Virus record (IMG/VR): IMGVR_UViG_3300043571_000203
Coordinates: 1-32,010 of that record
Direction: 5' to 3' (one strand)
From: a virus
Length of the DNA stretch: 32,010 nucleotides
The notes beneath the pieces are model-generated. The model did no database searches. It had not been told where the DNA came from and was given only the letters and a program-made list of their open reading frames with translations. The position numbers were made by a program, and so were the translations under genes. Positions 3,506 to 24,448 of this stretch are shown here, one piece after another. Within the stretch, counting starts at the first letter, position 1; every line of letters begins with the position of its first letter.

Positions 3506-3693
3506 CGGCTGGGCAGGCCCGCTCTGGCCTTGGGTGCGGTTGTGACATACGCACCAGGAGTCGCCCCGCCGGCGGTGGCGCGTAACACCGGCACGCTGTG
3601 AACGCATCGCACAGCACCGCCGAAAGCGTAAAGCCGGGCTCGCAACCGGCCGGCGGTTTGGGATACGGAGTCTGTTTCTAAAAGGAGTTAGAC
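3506..3693 (+). promoter_or_regulatory. Structured 188-base leader before csrA
   Basis: This gap holds no convincing gene. It contains the 14-base string ATACGCACCAGGAG (3547-3560), which recurs exactly at 9200-9213 before another isolated gene. It also contains a CGCC/GGCG hairpin around 3562-3580 and a GCCGG/CCGGC hairpin near 3632-3650. GGA occurs in CCAGGAG, ATACGGAG and AAAAGGAG, the last being the ribosome site of csrA. A promoter plus a leader that the CsrA product could bind to control itself is a reasonable reading, but nothing here proves it. Confidence 0.35.
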
Positions 3694-3873
3694 ATGCTTG
3701 TTTTGACACGCAAGACCGAGCAGGCCATTCACCTGGGCACCGACGTCATCATCAAGGTGCTGAAGGTGTCCGACGGCCAGGTCCGCATCGGTATCATCGC
3801 GCCCAAGTCGCTCACCATTCTTCGCGACGAGTTGGTCACCCGAGACAACCAAGAGGGCAAGAATGACAAGTAG
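3694..3873 (+). CDS. csrA: CsrA/RsmA-family RNA-binding translational regulator
   Basis: The 59-residue protein matches CsrA from end to end: start M-L-V-L-T-R-K, central V-L-K-V-S-D-G-Q-V-R-I-G-I-I-A-P-K, and L-R-D-E-L at residues 43-47. Arg44 and the following acidic residue Glu46 sit where CsrA contacts GGA in target mRNAs. CsrA dimers bind GGA motifs near ribosome sites and repress or stabilise messages. Bacterial homologues are chromosomal, so a copy inside a phage early operon suggests that the phage steers host or phage translation. A strong AAAAGGAG site lies 5 bases upstream of the ATG, and that GGA could allow autoregulation. The 3' end overlaps the next small gene by 11 bases. Confidence 0.93.
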   Translation: MLVLTRKTEQAIHLGTDVIIKVLKVSDGQVRIGIIAPKSLTILRDELVTRDNQEGKNDK

Positions 3874-3958
3874 CGCGGCAGGCATTCTCGTCATTACGAT
3901 TATCGCCATCCTGATCGTGGCTGGCGGCATTTTTAAGAGTGTCGACATCGGAGAGTAA
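3863..3958 (+). CDS. 31-residue single-span membrane peptide
   Basis: A tiny reading frame begins inside the last codons of csrA (ATG at 3863) and ends two bases before the nuclease gene. It encodes a short polar N-terminus, about 19 hydrophobic residues rich in Ile, Leu and Val (residues 6-24), and a charged end F-K-S-V-D-I-G-E. The predicted product is one transmembrane helix. AGAGGGCAAGA just upstream can act as ribosome site. The tight packing between two clear genes supports it, but the small size leaves doubt. The function is unknown; small phage membrane peptides often modulate host envelope proteins. Confidence 0.5.
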   Translation: MTSSAAGILVITIIAILIVAGGIFKSVDIGE

Positions 3959-3960
3959 CA

Positions 3961-4326
3961 GTGCCAGAAACGAAGCCAACCAAATACGCGTACGCCGCCT
4001 ATGTTGTGCGCGTCATCGACGGTGACACGCTGGAGGTCGATGTCGACCTCGGCCTGTGGACTTGGTGCAAGGGCATCAAGCTGCGCATGGCCAGGATCAA
4101 CATGCCGGAAATCGACACTGACGCTGGGTTTTACGCGAAATCCAAGCTGGAGATGCACGTACTTGGTCGTGGCCGAGTGCTTCTGCACACGATCAAGAAC
4201 CGCCACGGCAAAGACCGCGAGGACAAGTACGGCAGGCTCCTGGCGGAGGTGTGGGTCGCCGACACCAACGTCAACGACGCGATGATTGAGTGGTGGGAGG
4301 CGCGACGTGGCAAAACGGCAATGTAG
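3961..4326 (+). CDS. Staphylococcal-nuclease-fold (SNase/thermonuclease) protein
   Basis: The 121-residue product has the SNase signatures in order: V-R-V-I-D-G-D-T (about 16-23, metal and active-site strand), L-R-M-A-R-I-N-M-P-E (41-50, containing the catalytic Arg and Glu), and D-K-Y-G-R-L-L-A (88-95, second catalytic Arg). The family hydrolyses DNA or RNA with Ca2+. No signal peptide is present, so it acts inside the cell, perhaps in host DNA or RNA turnover. The start is GTG, two bases after the stop of the membrane peptide. The gene overlaps the next XRE gene by 20 bases, indicating co-translation. Confidence 0.88.
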   Translation: MPETKPTKYAYAAYVVRVIDGDTLEVDVDLGLWTWCKGIKLRMARINMPEIDTDAGFYAKSKLEMHVLGRGRVLLHTIKNRHGKDREDKYGRLLAEVWVADTNVNDAMIEWWEARRGKTAM

Positions 4327-4744
4327 TGAGGTCTTGTACACCGGCGAGGCATTGGGCCGCGTGTTTCACGCGACCGGGATGTCTCGGAAGGAGTTGGCCG
4401 ACAGGCTGCAGCTCAACGTGCAGCATGTGTCGAGCGTCTTTCAGGGGCGAAAGCCAGTGAGCCCGACATTCCAACTGCGCGTCCTGCAGGTGATACGCAT
4501 GGCACAGACGGGCACGCTGCCGCTATACGTGCCGCCGCCGAAGCGAGAAAAACCGAAGGTAGGGTACTGCGGATCGGGCGCGAATCTCCCCGAGGACTAC
4601 GAGCCGCTGCCGGCCAGCAGCCACACCAACGCAGCAGCTGGATCGGCAGATAAGGTCGCGGAGATGCGACGGCGAGCGGAACGCGGCGAGGAGTTGTTCA
4701 ACCCGCGCGACAACCAGATGTCGAAGCGGTTAGGAGACGACTGA
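4307..4744 (+). CDS. XRE-family HTH protein with variable C-terminal tail
   Basis: The 145-residue product has a Cro/CI-type helix-turn-helix near its N-terminus: F-H-A-T-G-M-S-R-K-E-L-A-D-R-L and Q-H-V-S-S-V-F-Q-G-R-K-P-V-S. A proline- and charge-rich tail of about 75 residues follows. I set the start at GTG 4307, which GGGAGG precedes by about 5 bases; an in-frame TTG at 4286 lies before that site. The helix-turn-helix resembles antitoxin HigA, but no toxin gene is adjacent, so a phage transcription factor is more likely. It ends in a one-base TGATG overlap with rusA. Confidence 0.72.
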   Translation: MAKRQCSEVLYTGEALGRVFHATGMSRKELADRLQLNVQHVSSVFQGRKPVSPTFQLRVLQVIRMAQTGTLPLYVPPPKREKPKVGYCGSGANLPEDYEPLPASSHTNAAAGSADKVAEMRRRAERGEELFNPRDNQMSKRLGDD

Positions 4745-5097
4745 TGACTGCTTACCGACTCTACGAACTTCCCTGGCCGCCAAGCGTCAACGGCTACTGG
4801 CGGTCATTCCGCGGGCGGCAAATTATCAGCCGGCGCGGCCGCGACTACCGCGACCTGGTGCAGGCAGAATTGGCTGGCACCAAGGCGATGCTGGGGCAAC
4901 TGAAAATCTCGATCTGCCTGCATCCGCCAGACAAGAGGCGGCGTGACATCGACAACGTACTCAAGGCCATTTTCGATTCGCTGGTGCACGCCGGCGCGAT
5001 GGAGGATGACTCACAGATTGACGAACTGTACGCAGTACGAAGAGAGGTAGTGCCAGGTGGTCTGGCTATTGTTGAACTGCGTAAGGCAAGGAGGTAA
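4744..5097 (+). CDS. rusA: RusA-family Holliday junction resolvase
   Basis: The 117-residue protein has the typical RusA length and motifs: P-W-P-P-S-V-N near the N-terminus, R-R-R-D-I-D-N-V-L-K-A-I-F-D-S-L at 65-80 with the conserved acidic pair Asp68 and Asp70, and a later acidic cluster M-E-D-D (86-89). RusA dimers cut four-way DNA junctions with Mg2+, and phages use them to trim branched DNA before packaging. The gene starts one base into the preceding stop codon and leads directly into the exonuclease and annealing-protein genes, forming a complete recombination module. Confidence 0.93.
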   Translation: MTAYRLYELPWPPSVNGYWRSFRGRQIISRRGRDYRDLVQAELAGTKAMLGQLKISICLHPPDKRRRDIDNVLKAIFDSLVHAGAMEDDSQIDELYAVRREVVPGGLAIVELRKARR

Positions 5098-5105
5098 TTC
5101 ATAAC

Positions 5106-5963
5106 GTGATCGAGACCCTACACCACCTGACAAACAGCGAGTACCGCGCGTATGAAGCGGTCTCGCAAAGCGACCTGAAGATGGCCGCACGAAACCCGCA
5201 GCTGTACTACGAGACATATCTGGCGGCACCAGGTTACCGACGCCCTCGGCCGGCCACCTCGCCCGAGCAGCTGTTCGGCATGGCCGTCGAGGAGCACCTG
5301 CGGACGCGGCAGGTCCCAAGCGACCTGGTGCTGATTCCGGCCGAGGTCCTAAACAAGGACGGGCACAGACGGGGATCTGCCTGGACCGCCTTTGCCACCG
5401 AGAACGCTGGCAAGACGCTGCTGACGCAGAAAGAGTTCGACGCGCAGATGCAGGGCATTTTCGACGCCGCGGCTAATGTGCGCGACCACCGAGTCGCGGA
5501 GCTGCTGGTGCACAGCGTCAGCGCCAAGTGGCACCAGCGGTTTCACTGGATCTGCCAGCAGACCATGCTGCCGCTGAAGGCCGAGCTCGACATCCTGGAT
5601 GAAGGCCTGGGCGTACTTACCGACGTGAAGACGGCGGCAGACACGGACGCTGACGCCTTCGTGCGATCGGCGCTGAACTTCGGCTATGACATCCAGGCAG
5701 CGCATTACCTGCAGGCCGCGACGCTGGCCTACCCGACGCGTGCGTGGACCTTCGCTTGGGTGGTCATCAGGAACAAGCCGCCGTACGACGTTGAGGTTTA
5801 CGACGCCTCCGACGAGCTCGTCAAGCACGGAGAGATGCGGCTGCTGGCCGCACGAGAGAACTATCGCCGCTGTGTGGATAGCGGCCTCTGGAGGAGCGCC
5901 ACGCATGGCATCTCGGTCAATCTCGACCTGCCGGCGTGGGCACGTGGACGGATTTCTATTTAG
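5106..5963 (+). CDS. RecE/YqaJ-like PD-(D/E)XK exonuclease
   Basis: The 285-residue protein carries the core of phage PD-(D/E)XK exonucleases. There is an N-terminal S-Q-S-D-L-K-M segment, a G-x-A-V-E-E-H motif at about 58-64, K-A-E-L-D-I-L at 158-164, T-D-V-K-T at 172-176 (active-site Asp173 and Lys175), and Q-A-A-H-Y-L-Q at 197-203. These enzymes degrade one strand of duplex DNA to expose single strands for annealing. The neighbour at 5972 is a RecT-like annealing protein, the classic exonuclease/annealase pair. The start is GTG at 5106, with AAGGAGGT about 11 bases upstream. Confidence 0.85.
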   Translation: MIETLHHLTNSEYRAYEAVSQSDLKMAARNPQLYYETYLAAPGYRRPRPATSPEQLFGMAVEEHLRTRQVPSDLVLIPAEVLNKDGHRRGSAWTAFATENAGKTLLTQKEFDAQMQGIFDAAANVRDHRVAELLVHSVSAKWHQRFHWICQQTMLPLKAELDILDEGLGVLTDVKTAADTDADAFVRSALNFGYDIQAAHYLQAATLAYPTRAWTFAWVVIRNKPPYDVEVYDASDELVKHGEMRLLAARENYRRCVDSGLWRSATHGISVNLDLPAWARGRISI

Positions 5964-5971
5964 GGGACGGC

Positions 5972-6718
5972 ATGAGCAACGAATTGGAAGCAACCAAGAC
6001 GAAGGTAGCGGTGGTCGACGACAGCGAGTTCTCGAACTGGCTGGACACCGCGCGCTTTGAGCACATCTGGCGGATGGCCAAAGTGTTCAGCGAGACGTCG
6101 ATGGTTCCCAGTGTGTTCCAGAAGAAGCCAGCTGATTGCATGGTCGCTATTCAGATGGCGCTTCGCTGCGGTATCGACCCGATGATGTTCCTGCAAAACA
6201 GCTACGTGATCTCGGGCAAGCCCAGCATTGAAACGAAGCTGGCGATTGCCATGCTGCTGAAGTCGGGCAGGATTCGCGGCACGATCACCTACGCATTCTC
6301 GGGCCAAGGCAAGAACCTGGCCTGCACCGCTTCGTGCATCTCGGCCGACACCGGCGAGCTGCTCGAGCACACGCTGACCTGGGACACGGTGGAGCGCAAC
6401 AAGTGGCATGAGAATGCGTTCTGGAAAAAAGACCCGGAGCTGATGATCCAGTATCGCTCGGCGATGCGTCTGATCAGGTCGCATTTCCCCGATGTCCTCC
6501 TGGGGTGCTACTCGAAGGACGAGCTGGAAGACATCGACAGCGAGCCGAAGCCTGTCGTTCGGCCCGGCCGCGCTCCTGGCAGGCTCAACCAGGTCATCGC
6601 GCCGGCCTTGGAGCCACCGAAGGCAGAGCAAGGCGACGCATGGGAGCCTGACGAGGAAGAGCGGGCCGCAATCGAGGGCCAGCTGTTCGAGACCCGCCCT
6701 AACGCACAGGAGGACTAA
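5972..6718 (+). CDS. recT: RecT-like single-strand DNA annealing protein
   Basis: The 248-residue protein contains the RecT-family core: A-K-V-F-S-E-T-S-M-V-P, A-I-Q-M-A-L-R-C-G-I-D-P-M-M, then S-Y-V-I-S-G-K-P-S-I-E-T-K-L and a terminal R-L-I-R-S-H-F-P-D-V. RecT proteins coat single strands and anneal complementary ends during phage recombination. I start at ATG 5972, after AGGGGACGG; an in-frame upstream start at 5936 would overlap the exonuclease gene without need. The last 60 residues are acidic and Pro-rich, a likely flexible tail for partner binding. The upstream exonuclease supports the call. Confidence 0.85.
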   Translation: MSNELEATKTKVAVVDDSEFSNWLDTARFEHIWRMAKVFSETSMVPSVFQKKPADCMVAIQMALRCGIDPMMFLQNSYVISGKPSIETKLAIAMLLKSGRIRGTITYAFSGQGKNLACTASCISADTGELLEHTLTWDTVERNKWHENAFWKKDPELMIQYRSAMRLIRSHFPDVLLGCYSKDELEDIDSEPKPVVRPGRAPGRLNQVIAPALEPPKAEQGDAWEPDEEERAAIEGQLFETRPNAQED

Positions 6719-6906: not shown

Positions 6907-7211
6907 ACCCTGACGAGATGACATGGCTGGCCCTGCCGCCCGAACCGGTCGGTGCTTGGGCACGCCTGGAAGACGACCTCAAGCACGGGTTCCACCCTAA
7001 GCGCGAGGACCTGCTGGCGATCTGGGCGCAGGCCTACCCCGACCGACCCGTCGTGAAGACGACCAGGTGCAAGGTCTGCGAGGGTACCGGTGGCGTCCAG
7101 TGGCATGCGTACGTGGCCGGCAAGGCACCCGAACCCATCGGTACTGTCGACTGCCCGCAGTGCGACGGGACTGGCCAGGGACCTCGGCCGCAGTGGATCA
7201 ACGACCTATGA
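6903..7211 (+). CDS. DnaJ-type zinc-finger protein
   Basis: The 102-residue protein has two C-x-x-C-x-G-T-G motifs (C-K-V-C-E-G-T-G near residue 59 and C-P-Q-C-D-G-T-G near 88), the signature of the DnaJ cysteine-rich zinc finger, here one complete zinc site. No J domain is present, so it is not a chaperone but a zinc-binding accessory protein of unknown role. The first 55 residues are acidic and Trp-rich. It starts in an ATGA overlap with the previous gene and ends in another ATGA overlap with the replication gene, so all three are co-translated. Confidence 0.72.
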   Translation: MNPDEMTWLALPPEPVGAWARLEDDLKHGFHPKREDLLAIWAQAYPDRPVVKTTRCKVCEGTGGVQWHAYVAGKAPEPIGTVDCPQCDGTGQGPRPQWINDL

Positions 7212-8014
7212 AACACAGCACGCCACAACTGCTGAAGTTCCAGCGTCTCCAGCGCAGGCTCGGCGAGACCAAGCGTGGTCTTGTCGGCCTGCTGGAGCTG
7301 CTCTGGCACGGCACTGCCACCCAAGCGCCGCAGGGCGACATCGGCAAGTTCAGCAACGAGGAGATCGCCATCCTCGTGGACTGGGAGGGCGACTACGACC
7401 AGTTGGTCGACGCATTGGTCGACACCGGCTGGCTTGATCGCTGCTCCAAGCACCGCCTGGTGGTGCACGACTGGGGACAGCACGCACCAAACTGGGTAAG
7501 GATGCTAGTAAAAAAACGCGACTTGTCCTTCTCAGAAGCCTCAGCAGAAGCCTCTACAGAGGGCTCTGCAGAAGCCTCACAAGAAGCCTCTACAGAGGCC
7601 TCTGCTGAAGGGACACCTAACCTAACCAAACCTAACCTAACCAATATGACTCCTAACGGAGTCTCCGACGTCTCCAGAAATCTGGAGCCCCCGGTCGTCG
7701 CGGATCGCCGGTACGCGATCGCTGGTGGCAAGGAGGTTCAGGTCGAGCAGCGGCACGTCGACCGGTGGGCAAACACGTACCGCGACCGCCTCGACGTGGA
7801 GCACGAACTGGCCAAGGCCGCGGACTGGCTGGCCGCGAATGCCACGAAACGCCCTCGGAACGGCACAGGCTTGGTCAAGTTCCTGGCGTCCTGGATGTCC
7901 CGGGCCGACGAACGCGAGCGGCGAAACGCCCGCGGATCGCCTGCACCAGGAACGCCGGCCAAGTCACGGATACCGACACTGCGAGAAGCGCTAGGAGCGA
8001 CGAATGGACGTTGA
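7208..8014 (+). CDS. Phage replication initiator / helicase-loader-like protein (O-like)
   Basis: The 268-residue product has an N-terminal winged-helix-like domain (residues 1-105). It ends with H-D-W-G-Q-H-A-P-N-W-V-R-M-L-V-K-K-R, a pattern seen in phage replication proteins that bind origin DNA. The middle is a low-complexity linker with seven degenerate four-residue repeats (E-A-S type). The C-terminus (about 195-245) has A-K-A-A-D-W-L-A-A-N and G-L-V-K-F-L-A-S-W-M-S-R-A, like the helicase-loading end of O/DnaD-type proteins. The linker DNA forms iteron-like repeats at 7529-7644, as the lambda origin lies within gene O. The ATG overlaps the upstream stop. Confidence 0.68.
   Translation: MKHSTPQLLKFQRLQRRLGETKRGLVGLLELLWHGTATQAPQGDIGKFSNEEIAILVDWEGDYDQLVDALVDTGWLDRCSKHRLVVHDWGQHAPNWVRMLVKKRDLSFSEASAEASTEGSAEASQEASTEASAEGTPNLTKPNLTNMTPNGVSDVSRNLEPPVVADRRYAIAGGKEVQVEQRHVDRWANTYRDRLDVEHELAKAADWLAANATKRPRNGTGLVKFLASWMSRADERERRNARGSPAPGTPAKSRIPTLREALGATNGR
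7529..7644 (+). repeat. Iteron-like repeats inside the replication gene: candidate replication origin
   Basis: Seven imperfect 12-bp units (7529-7612), most ending GAAGCC or GAGGCC, are followed at once by two exact 15-bp copies of ACCTAACCTAACCAA (7615-7629 and 7630-7644) and an A/T-containing stretch. Repeats of this kind within the linker of a replication protein gene match the layout of the lambda origin (iterons in gene O). The repeats also encode E-A-S and N-L-T peptide repeats, so a protein-level explanation is possible. Confidence 0.55.
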
Positions 8015-22840: not shown

Positions 22841-23504
22841 GCTTCGCGACCAACTGCTGGCCCTTGCCGTGATCCTCGTGATCTGCGGCACCATGTGCGC
22901 GCTGGCTGCGGCCGGCGAGACGCAGCGGGTTCTCGTGCGTCCCGGCCTGGTCGAGATCCGCCTGCCTGATGCGGTCGCTGAGGGTTCCGACATCACGTGG
23001 GAGGCTCGCGAACCCCTCACGCTCGACTACCGCAGCTACGAGGGCGGCACGGTTCTGGTGACGTACATGACCAGCGGGCAGGCCGTCCTGGTCTCCGACG
23101 TGATCGACTGGCAGGCCAAGAAGCGCGACCGGACCACGTGGATTCTCTTTGTGCAGGCCGGACCAGGCCCAGGGCCTGCCCCTGGCCCCACAGTGCCCCC
23201 AGGAATCGCTCAAGACGTCTGCAAGGCTGCACAGTCGATCGCTCAGCCGCAGGTCGCCAGACGCTTCGCAGAGGCCTTCCGCACGGCATCGTCCGAGATT
23301 GGAGCGGGTCGCCTGCGAACACTCGACGAGGTCAAGGCGCGAATTCTTGAGCTGTGCAAGGGCATCGCACCAGGTGCAGCACCTTGGCAGGCTGTGGGCA
23401 CCATGATCGGTCAGCATCTCAACGCGCAGGCCAAAACGCCCGCGGAGGCCAAGCAGGTCTTCGACCAGGTCGTTCTGGGCCTAGAAGCCGCGGGAGGTGC
23501 CTGA
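22827..23504 (+). CDS. Secreted or membrane-anchored protein with signal sequence and Pro/Gly linker
   Basis: The 225-residue protein starts at GTG 22827, overlapping the previous gene by 14 bases. It has a signal sequence (basic start R-L-R-D, hydrophobic L-L-A-L-A-V-I-L-V-I-C-G-T, Ala-rich cleavage zone near residues 27-30). An exported beta-rich domain (about 32-108) and a linker G-P-G-P-G-P-A-P-G-P come next, followed by a helical C-terminal domain with two Cys residues. It probably acts in the envelope with the adjacent peptidase. The family is not recognised. Confidence 0.65.
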   Translation: MSPSRLRDQLLALAVILVICGTMCALAAAGETQRVLVRPGLVEIRLPDAVAEGSDITWEAREPLTLDYRSYEGGTVLVTYMTSGQAVLVSDVIDWQAKKRDRTTWILFVQAGPGPGPAPGPTVPPGIAQDVCKAAQSIAQPQVARRFAEAFRTASSEIGAGRLRTLDEVKARILELCKGIAPGAAPWQAVGTMIGQHLNAQAKTPAEAKQVFDQVVLGLEAAGGA

Positions 23505-24448
23505 TGGACCACGAGGGCTGGATCCCGTACTCCGAACGCACTACCGGCCAGCAGCTGCTCAGCGACGACTTCCTGGAGTCGCGACCGATCTTCGGCGAGA
23601 CCGGCACCGTGGAGCTGCCAGAGCACGCCCTGCTGTACGACCTGGAGAAGCGTGCCACGGGAGCCCTCCTGCCGCGAATCTGGCAGCAGGAAGGAAGCTG
23701 CGTAGGGGCAGCTGGTGCCCGTGCCTACGCTCAGTCGATCTGCGGTGACCTGGTGCACCGAAAGACGACCGAGGAGGTCAAGGTCATCTTTCCTTGGGCT
23801 ACCTGGGGCATCGGTCGCCGGATCGCCGGTTTGAACCGCCGAGGCGGCGGGTCGTTCGGCGCGGCGCAGGCCAAGGCGGTCAGTACGTGGGGGATGCTTG
23901 CCGCCGACGATCCGCGGCTTCCGCAACCGACCGACAAGCTCGGCTGGCTTGTCTGGTCCGCCAAGATCGAGCTCGACTACAGCGTGCCGGCCAAGTGGCC
24001 TGTGGCGGAAAGCACGCTGGCCCCAACCGCCAGTGAACACCAGATGGAATACGTGGCGCGCATCACCAGCTGGGAGGCTTTGCTGCAGGCCTTTGCGCAA
24101 GGCTACTCGGTCACCTGCGCGTCGATGTTCGGAACCAAGCCTCGCGTGAAGGACGGCGTACTCCTGGGACCTTGGAACGACAGCTGGGCGCATCAGATGT
24201 CATGGTCTGGCTACTACACGCACAAAGTGCTGGGACCGCTAATCGCAGTCGACAACCAGTGGGGACCTGCAGCGCATGGCGACTGCCCGCTGCTCGCCTC
24301 GATGGGTGTCCGCGGCTCGTTCTGGATCGACGAGAAGACCACGAAGAAGCTGCTGGCCAGCGACGACGCCGAAATCTTCGCGCACGGAAATTCAGAGGAC
24401 TGGCCTGTACGGTCAATCGACTGGGGCAGTCTTGGGATGGGTTCTTAA
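23504..24448 (+). CDS. Papain-like cysteine peptidase (C1-type)
   Basis: The 314-residue protein shows the papain-fold triad in the expected order: Q-Q-E-G-S-C-V-G (Cys66, with Gln61/62 for the oxyanion hole), S-W-A-H-Q-M (His230) and V-D-N-Q-W-G (Asn251, the N-x-W-G motif). C1-type enzymes cleave peptide bonds; a phage version could attack host proteins, mature virion parts or cut wall cross-links. It has no signal sequence of its own and follows the secreted protein gene with a TGATG overlap. It sits between tail genes, not near the capsid protease. The biochemical class is strong; the target is unknown. Confidence 0.82.
   Translation: MDHEGWIPYSERTTGQQLLSDDFLESRPIFGETGTVELPEHALLYDLEKRATGALLPRIWQQEGSCVGAAGARAYAQSICGDLVHRKTTEEVKVIFPWATWGIGRRIAGLNRRGGGSFGAAQAKAVSTWGMLAADDPRLPQPTDKLGWLVWSAKIELDYSVPAKWPVAESTLAPTASEHQMEYVARITSWEALLQAFAQGYSVTCASMFGTKPRVKDGVLLGPWNDSWAHQMSWSGYYTHKVLGPLIAVDNQWGPAAHGDCPLLASMGVRGSFWIDEKTTKKLLASDDAEIFAHGNSEDWPVRSIDWGSLGMGS

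Follow-up and report, generated by a model that had tools for sequence, protein, structure and literature searches.

A complete CsrA-family gene in the early recombination and replication module of a phage with Planctomycetota as its probable hosts

The genome of a tailed phage, in all likelihood one that infects Planctomycetota, carries a complete gene for a CsrA-family RNA-binding protein, and the recurring feature of csrA in the phages and prophages examined is its place in an early recombination and replication module, not membership of a dedicated cassette. CsrA proteins are dimers that bind A(N)GGA motifs, best when these are displayed in hairpin loops, and thereby block the access of ribosomes. 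The stretch of DNA analysed, referred to as the window, is an IMG/VR virus record of 32,010 bases that includes genes for terminase, portal and major capsid proteins, and csrA is encoded inside the phage genome and not in a host flank. Among isolated phages, no close DNA match to the window was found in 50,697 phage records. Phage-encoded CsrA is already documented, and the window adds a further member.

The csrA gene (3694..3873, forward strand) runs from an ATG at 3694 to a TAG at 3871-3873 and encodes 59 aa. The product matches PF02599 over profile positions 1-50 of 53 with E=1.5e-19 and 70.1 bits (cut-off 27), as well as the PHROGs family phrog_9500, a 'CsrA-like regulator' (E=2e-16), and has sequence matches in the PDB to 2jpp, 1t3o and 7yr6. 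It possesses all the residues that are invariant in a 26-sequence alignment, namely M1, L2, L4, T5, R6, G33, A36, P37, R44 and E46. The RNA-contact residues L4 and R6 (strand beta1) and R44 (strand beta5) are shared by the window protein, 34 of 34 Planctomycetota chromosomal sequences and 63 of 63 aligned viral sequences. An earlier note on this DNA had reported a complete CsrA homologue with Arg44 and Glu46 in the RNA-contact region, and both observations hold; since every aligned family member has these two residues, they are generic to the CsrA family. Their conservation is not forced by the way the sequences were selected, because the search pattern came from the N-terminus. An AlphaFold2 model of the monomer (pLDDT 81, with strand beta1 at low confidence) has the five-strand plus helix fold and matches only CsrA/RsmA chains in the PDB (TM 0.7-0.8), including RsmE on the hcnA Shine-Dalgarno sequence (2jpp) and RsmZ SL1 (2mfc). 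As judged from sequence and model, the window CsrA is a sound member of the family and, by analogy, is predicted to be a homodimer binding GGA hairpins. Length, L4, R6, R44, E46 and predicted fold are common to it and the characterized CsrA, RsmA and RsmE proteins (PF02599; RsmE-hcnA, 2jpp; RsmA-RsmZ, 7yr6), from which it differs by Leu43 in place of His, by Leu47 and by a short C-terminal tail.

These two leucines bear on the origin of the gene. In chromosomal CsrA of Planctomycetota, position 43 is most often Leu (17/34) and so is position 47 (29/34), and the viral CsrA set has mostly His43 and Ile47, L43 and L47 being rare. Within the collection of genomes, the nearest relative of the window CsrA (57% identity) belongs to a Planctomycetaceae MAG. 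In a tree of only 54 columns, the neighbours of the window protein are a single further viral CsrA and a small number of chromosomal CsrAs from Planctomycetota and other bacteria; support ranges from weak to moderate (inner nodes 0.67 and 0.46, six-member clade 0.86), and the origin therefore rests on residues 43 and 47 and the best matches. Of 392 Planctomycetota genomes, 8 encode homologues of the portal protein at 38-47% identity (E<1e-90), and the best match among 378 Pseudomonadota genomes reaches E 3.8e-18 and 26% identity. The Planctomycetota homologues amount to nine copies, one genome having two, and thus define nine related prophage loci, at which the order terminase large subunit (TerL), portal, major capsid is kept. 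Because of the portal matches, the closest CsrA and the Leu43/Leu47 pair, the host phylum is assigned as Planctomycetota with high confidence on sequence grounds.

The cell entered by such a phage would already be rich in CsrA. Seven of the eight genomes with related prophages encode 9, 13, 9, 13, 13, 8 and 9 CsrA genes over the Pfam cut-off, and the eighth, a 3.4-Mb assembly, shows none. The Planctomycetota genomes G097, G395, G034, G379, G204, G215 and G331 each have 8-13 CsrA-family genes, and a protein search gave at least five CsrA in roughly 37 of 392 genomes of the phylum. In the literature searched, neither a paper on multiple CsrA paralogues in Planctomycetota genomes nor a study of the Csr pathway in this phylum was found.

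Within the phage, csrA is the first gene after a 188-nt gap, downstream of a ParB-like gene and repressor-like HTH genes, and heads a run that continues on the forward strand through the genes for an SNase-like nuclease (described below), an HTH DNA-binding protein (4286..4744, start uncertain; PF13560 at 5e-5, below the curated cut-off), a RusA-like Holliday junction resolvase (4744..5097; PF05866, 2.3e-13), a DUF3799/exonuclease VIII-like recombination exonuclease (5106..5963; Pfam, PHROGs), a RecT-like ssDNA annealing protein (5936..6718; Pfam, PHROGs) and a replication-initiation-type protein (7067..8014, start uncertain; phrog_9474, 3e-16). These neighbours on both sides suit the description 'early operon' that had been given to the region. 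An ORF similar to the HTH gene lies near csrA in locus L304, and no close IMG/VR relatives were found for RecT, the ParB-like gene or the gene upstream of csrA. The upstream region contains two tandem, similar small HTH genes of Cro/C1 type (393-647 and 707-940), followed by the ParB-like gene (1643-2848); together they could form a lysogeny/partition region, and no integrase was recognised in the window. As a separate observation, the late region includes a 364-aa ORF (23354-24448) without a Pfam match, whose C- and H-containing stretches give it by eye the look of a papain-type peptidase.

The same setting recurs elsewhere. The neighbours of csrA on IMG/VR contigs are RecT and a replication-initiation gene in L005, RecE-like and RecT genes in L022, RecE-like and Erf genes in L008, and a DUF3799 exonuclease gene in L003; in two related Planctomycetota prophages (L228 and L229), csrA is directly upstream of a gene for a 324-339-aa winged-helix protein, which in L229 has a weak match to 'replication initiation O-like'. 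Of the nine csrA phages in which RecT was detected, eight carry it within 4 kb of csrA, for which p is about 2.5e-5 under uniform placement, or about 7e-5 when the window is left out; contig size was allowed for, some contigs being short, and a mild bias remains in these values, since the RecT genes of L005 and the window were already known or were picked up with the RecT of the window as query. As a side observation, the gene after csrA in L003 (1086-1454, the same gene being present in L004) codes for a protein of 122 aa; the C-terminal part of this product (ALEDRVINALERAGIQTIGDLVGYTDEDL...) resembles by eye an RNA polymerase alpha-CTD or HhH motif.

Among the relatives of the phage, the gene is sporadic. 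Of 80 TerL relatives, many of them lacking upstream sequence, one is a clear csrA carrier, and the nine related prophage loci have two intact copies and one degenerate one; csrA, present only in a minority of related phages, is thus not essential for the group. The degenerate copy, in a prophage of G379 (L345, 5793-6041), begins MLYMTPK..., is without L4, R6 and E46, and occupies a comparable position, ahead of an HTH gene; it may be decaying or repurposed. A further 'CsrA' in a TerL-related phage (L268, 5272-5454; CsrA HMM E 0.007) was rejected, as it is without the CsrA N-terminal motif; this small protein, encoded upstream of tail-type genes, is one we take to be FlbT-like. The sporadic distribution, the degenerate prophage copy and the likeness to Planctomycetota CsrA would all suit a csrA recently captured from the host and devoid of a selected function in the phage. 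We nevertheless think this quite unlikely, as every defining residue is intact in the window CsrA and the gene recurs non-randomly in early modules.

Immediately downstream, a 31-aa frame (3863..3958, forward strand) opens with an ATG at 3863 inside the csrA 3' end, overlaps csrA by 11 nt and ends with a TAA at 3958; its sequence is MTSSAAGILVITIIAILIVAGGIFKSVDIGE. It is preceded by a plausible Shine-Dalgarno sequence, GAGGG, five bases before the ATG, and is the sole strongly hydrophobic small ORF of the window: of 267 small ORFs (20-60 aa), only this one exceeds 2.2 in a hydrophobic 19-mer (score 2.83), and none of 20 shuffles gave a 19-mer of at least 2.8. No family match was obtained in Pfam or PHROGs. 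Since its hydrophobicity exceeds chance and a Shine-Dalgarno sequence is present, the frame is likely to be a gene; it probably encodes a real, translationally coupled, single-helix membrane peptide with a function separate from that of csrA, co-translation with csrA being suggested by the overlap. The nuclease gene (3961..4326, forward strand) begins with a GTG at 3961, 2 nt past the peptide stop, and encodes 121 aa that match PF00565 (2.3e-6) and the phrog_452 endonuclease family (2.6e-19). Its motifs DGDT, LRM..PE and KYGR fit R35, E43 and R87 by eye, with N at the D40 position. Neither a sequence match in the PDB nor close IMG/VR relatives were found; relatives occur in cyanophages and other phages, and the SNase-type endonucleases of phages (phrog_452; cyanophages, Melnitz-like phages) have the PF00565 domain in common with it at about 31-38% identity.

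The overlapping one-helix frame and the nuclease gene two bases beyond it are as the earlier note described them, and from this arrangement it had proposed a host-takeover cassette of csrA, membrane peptide and SNase. The genes do lie on one strand, overlapping or 2 nt apart, and the peptide does look like a real gene; phage operons are, however, normally tightly packed, and the trio is conserved in none of the sampled material. No short one-helix peptide followed by an SNase gene was found after csrA at any of about 90 csrA-positive viral loci, comprising 87 from IMG/VR (80 from a profile search and seven from a first search, a few of them shared) and several annotated phage loci. SNase occurs in two of 50 csrA-positive viral records, several kb away and never adjacent to csrA, so that, unlike the window, no other phage examined has the two genes side by side. 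A tblastn search with the window proteins revealed neither SNase nor peptide at 80 TerL-related viral loci, both are lacking from the related Planctomycetota prophages with csrA, and the cassette is absent from all nine prophage loci. Within this material the proposal fails the conservation check that the earlier note had itself set for it. A dedicated takeover cassette is thus very improbable; the idea is not supported and is not worth carrying forward. The SNase is probably an ordinary early phage nuclease, and neither it nor the peptide accompanies csrA as a conserved partner.

The position of csrA at the head of its operon, together with the replication and recombination genes that recur next to it, raises another possibility, that the phage CsrA mainly controls phage mRNAs including its own, thereby setting the timing or amount of the early recombination and replication proteins. 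The non-coding leader of csrA (3506..3693, forward strand, 188 nt) contains GC-rich hairpins, and scanning it gave no sigma-70-like promoter and no T-run terminator. On the same strand, an AAGGA (3682..3686) overlaps the csrA Shine-Dalgarno sequence inside a small predicted hairpin, and an ACGGA (3665..3669), a possible upstream CsrA contact, lies 17 nt before it. The leader thereby has the arrangement looked for in a possible dual-site autoregulation, two GGA sites 10-63 nt apart of which one is on the Shine-Dalgarno sequence, and csrA differs from the other gene starts of the window (40 in all) in having two AnGGA within 40 nt upstream of the start codon. The proximal motif is, however, explained by the Shine-Dalgarno sequence itself, and may be nothing beyond a ribosome-binding site. 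Nor is the pattern enriched across csrA leaders: in 61 of them, from non-redundant viral loci and the two prophages, the number of upstream AnGGA sites does not exceed that of shuffled sequences (16 versus 16.9), and the window as a whole has 158 AnGGA, fewer than its shuffles (200). Folding of the leader is unexceptional (z -0.6 to -1.4). An Rfam search of the window gave no match, and thus no known sponge RNA of CsrB/RsmZ type. Control directed mainly at phage mRNAs is accordingly a possible but distinctly less favoured reading, to which we would give about one chance in a few.

We lean instead, with somewhat better than even confidence, towards a phage csrA whose dimeric product represses translation early on and supplements the multi-CsrA network of the host, likely shifting host mRNA use towards the needs of the phage. 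The protein would be made early in infection or on induction, in a host whose network already comprises about 8-13 CsrA paralogues, and would bind GGA motifs that coincide with the ribosome-binding sites of target mRNAs or lie close to them; the bound mRNAs would be repressed, and sometimes stabilised, and host mRNA use would shift in the favour of the phage. RNA binding, host-directed targets and timing are what we infer here. Two considerations make host mRNAs the likelier target: numerous CsrA paralogues are already at work in the cell entered, and where CsrA proteins of mobile elements have been studied, it is the network of the host that they act on (PMC9928087; proposed in PMC8450108). 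One CsrA beyond the host paralogues may, on the other hand, change little. The earlier suggestion of a phage CsrA with possible effects on mRNAs of host or phage thus stands, in that the CsrA is genuine and its operon of early type, and falls as regards a takeover cassette with peptide and SNase. A more specific role, in which the phage CsrA lowers host immune systems such as CRISPR-Cas, has been proposed for phage RsmA in Serratia, along with a phage-host csrA correlation (PMC8450108); the window contains nothing bearing on defence, and we consider this counter-defence role unlikely here.

Phage csrA genes have been surveyed before, with 30 of 2,517 phage genomes positive in 2020 (PMC7366521) and a further survey in 2021 (PMC8450108), and the phage-host CsrA idea is itself already in print (PMC8450108, PMC7366521, PMC11879866); in the phage collection used here, csrA occurs in 79 records, a few of them host-derived contigs. 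The one functional test of a phage csrA found in the literature searched is the knock-down of the homologue in phage PTXU04, which led to smaller plaques (PMC11879866). Like other phage CsrA homologues (phrog_9500; Pseudomonas RsmM-type, Vibrio phages, PTXU04), the window csrA is a small tailed-phage gene, and these too are often near early genes; it differs in belonging to a Planctomycetota phage with neighbours of its own (peptide, SNase), and its best viral matches are about 48-53% identical. Other mobile elements also carry CsrA proteins able to rewire a host Csr network, as the window's might: plasmid pQBR103 encodes RsmQ, which binds GGA and reprograms the host (PMC9928087), and a Legionella ICE encodes CsrT (cited in PMC7366521). 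The window differs from both in element, host phylum and context.

What is new is the host phylum, Planctomycetota, the quantitative association of csrA with the early module and the finding that host CsrA paralogues are so numerous. More speculatively, and with only a small chance of being right, Planctomycetota phages might have recruited CsrA from their hosts time and again as the leading gene of a replication/recombination operon, so as to intervene in a network of some 10 paralogues, for example by heterodimerising with or out-competing them, with the 31-aa peptide as a coupled early membrane effector; if so, CsrA would be a hub of the phage-host arms race in this phylum. In hosts with 8-13 CsrA genes, the role of one more, phage-borne copy makes a clean experimental question.
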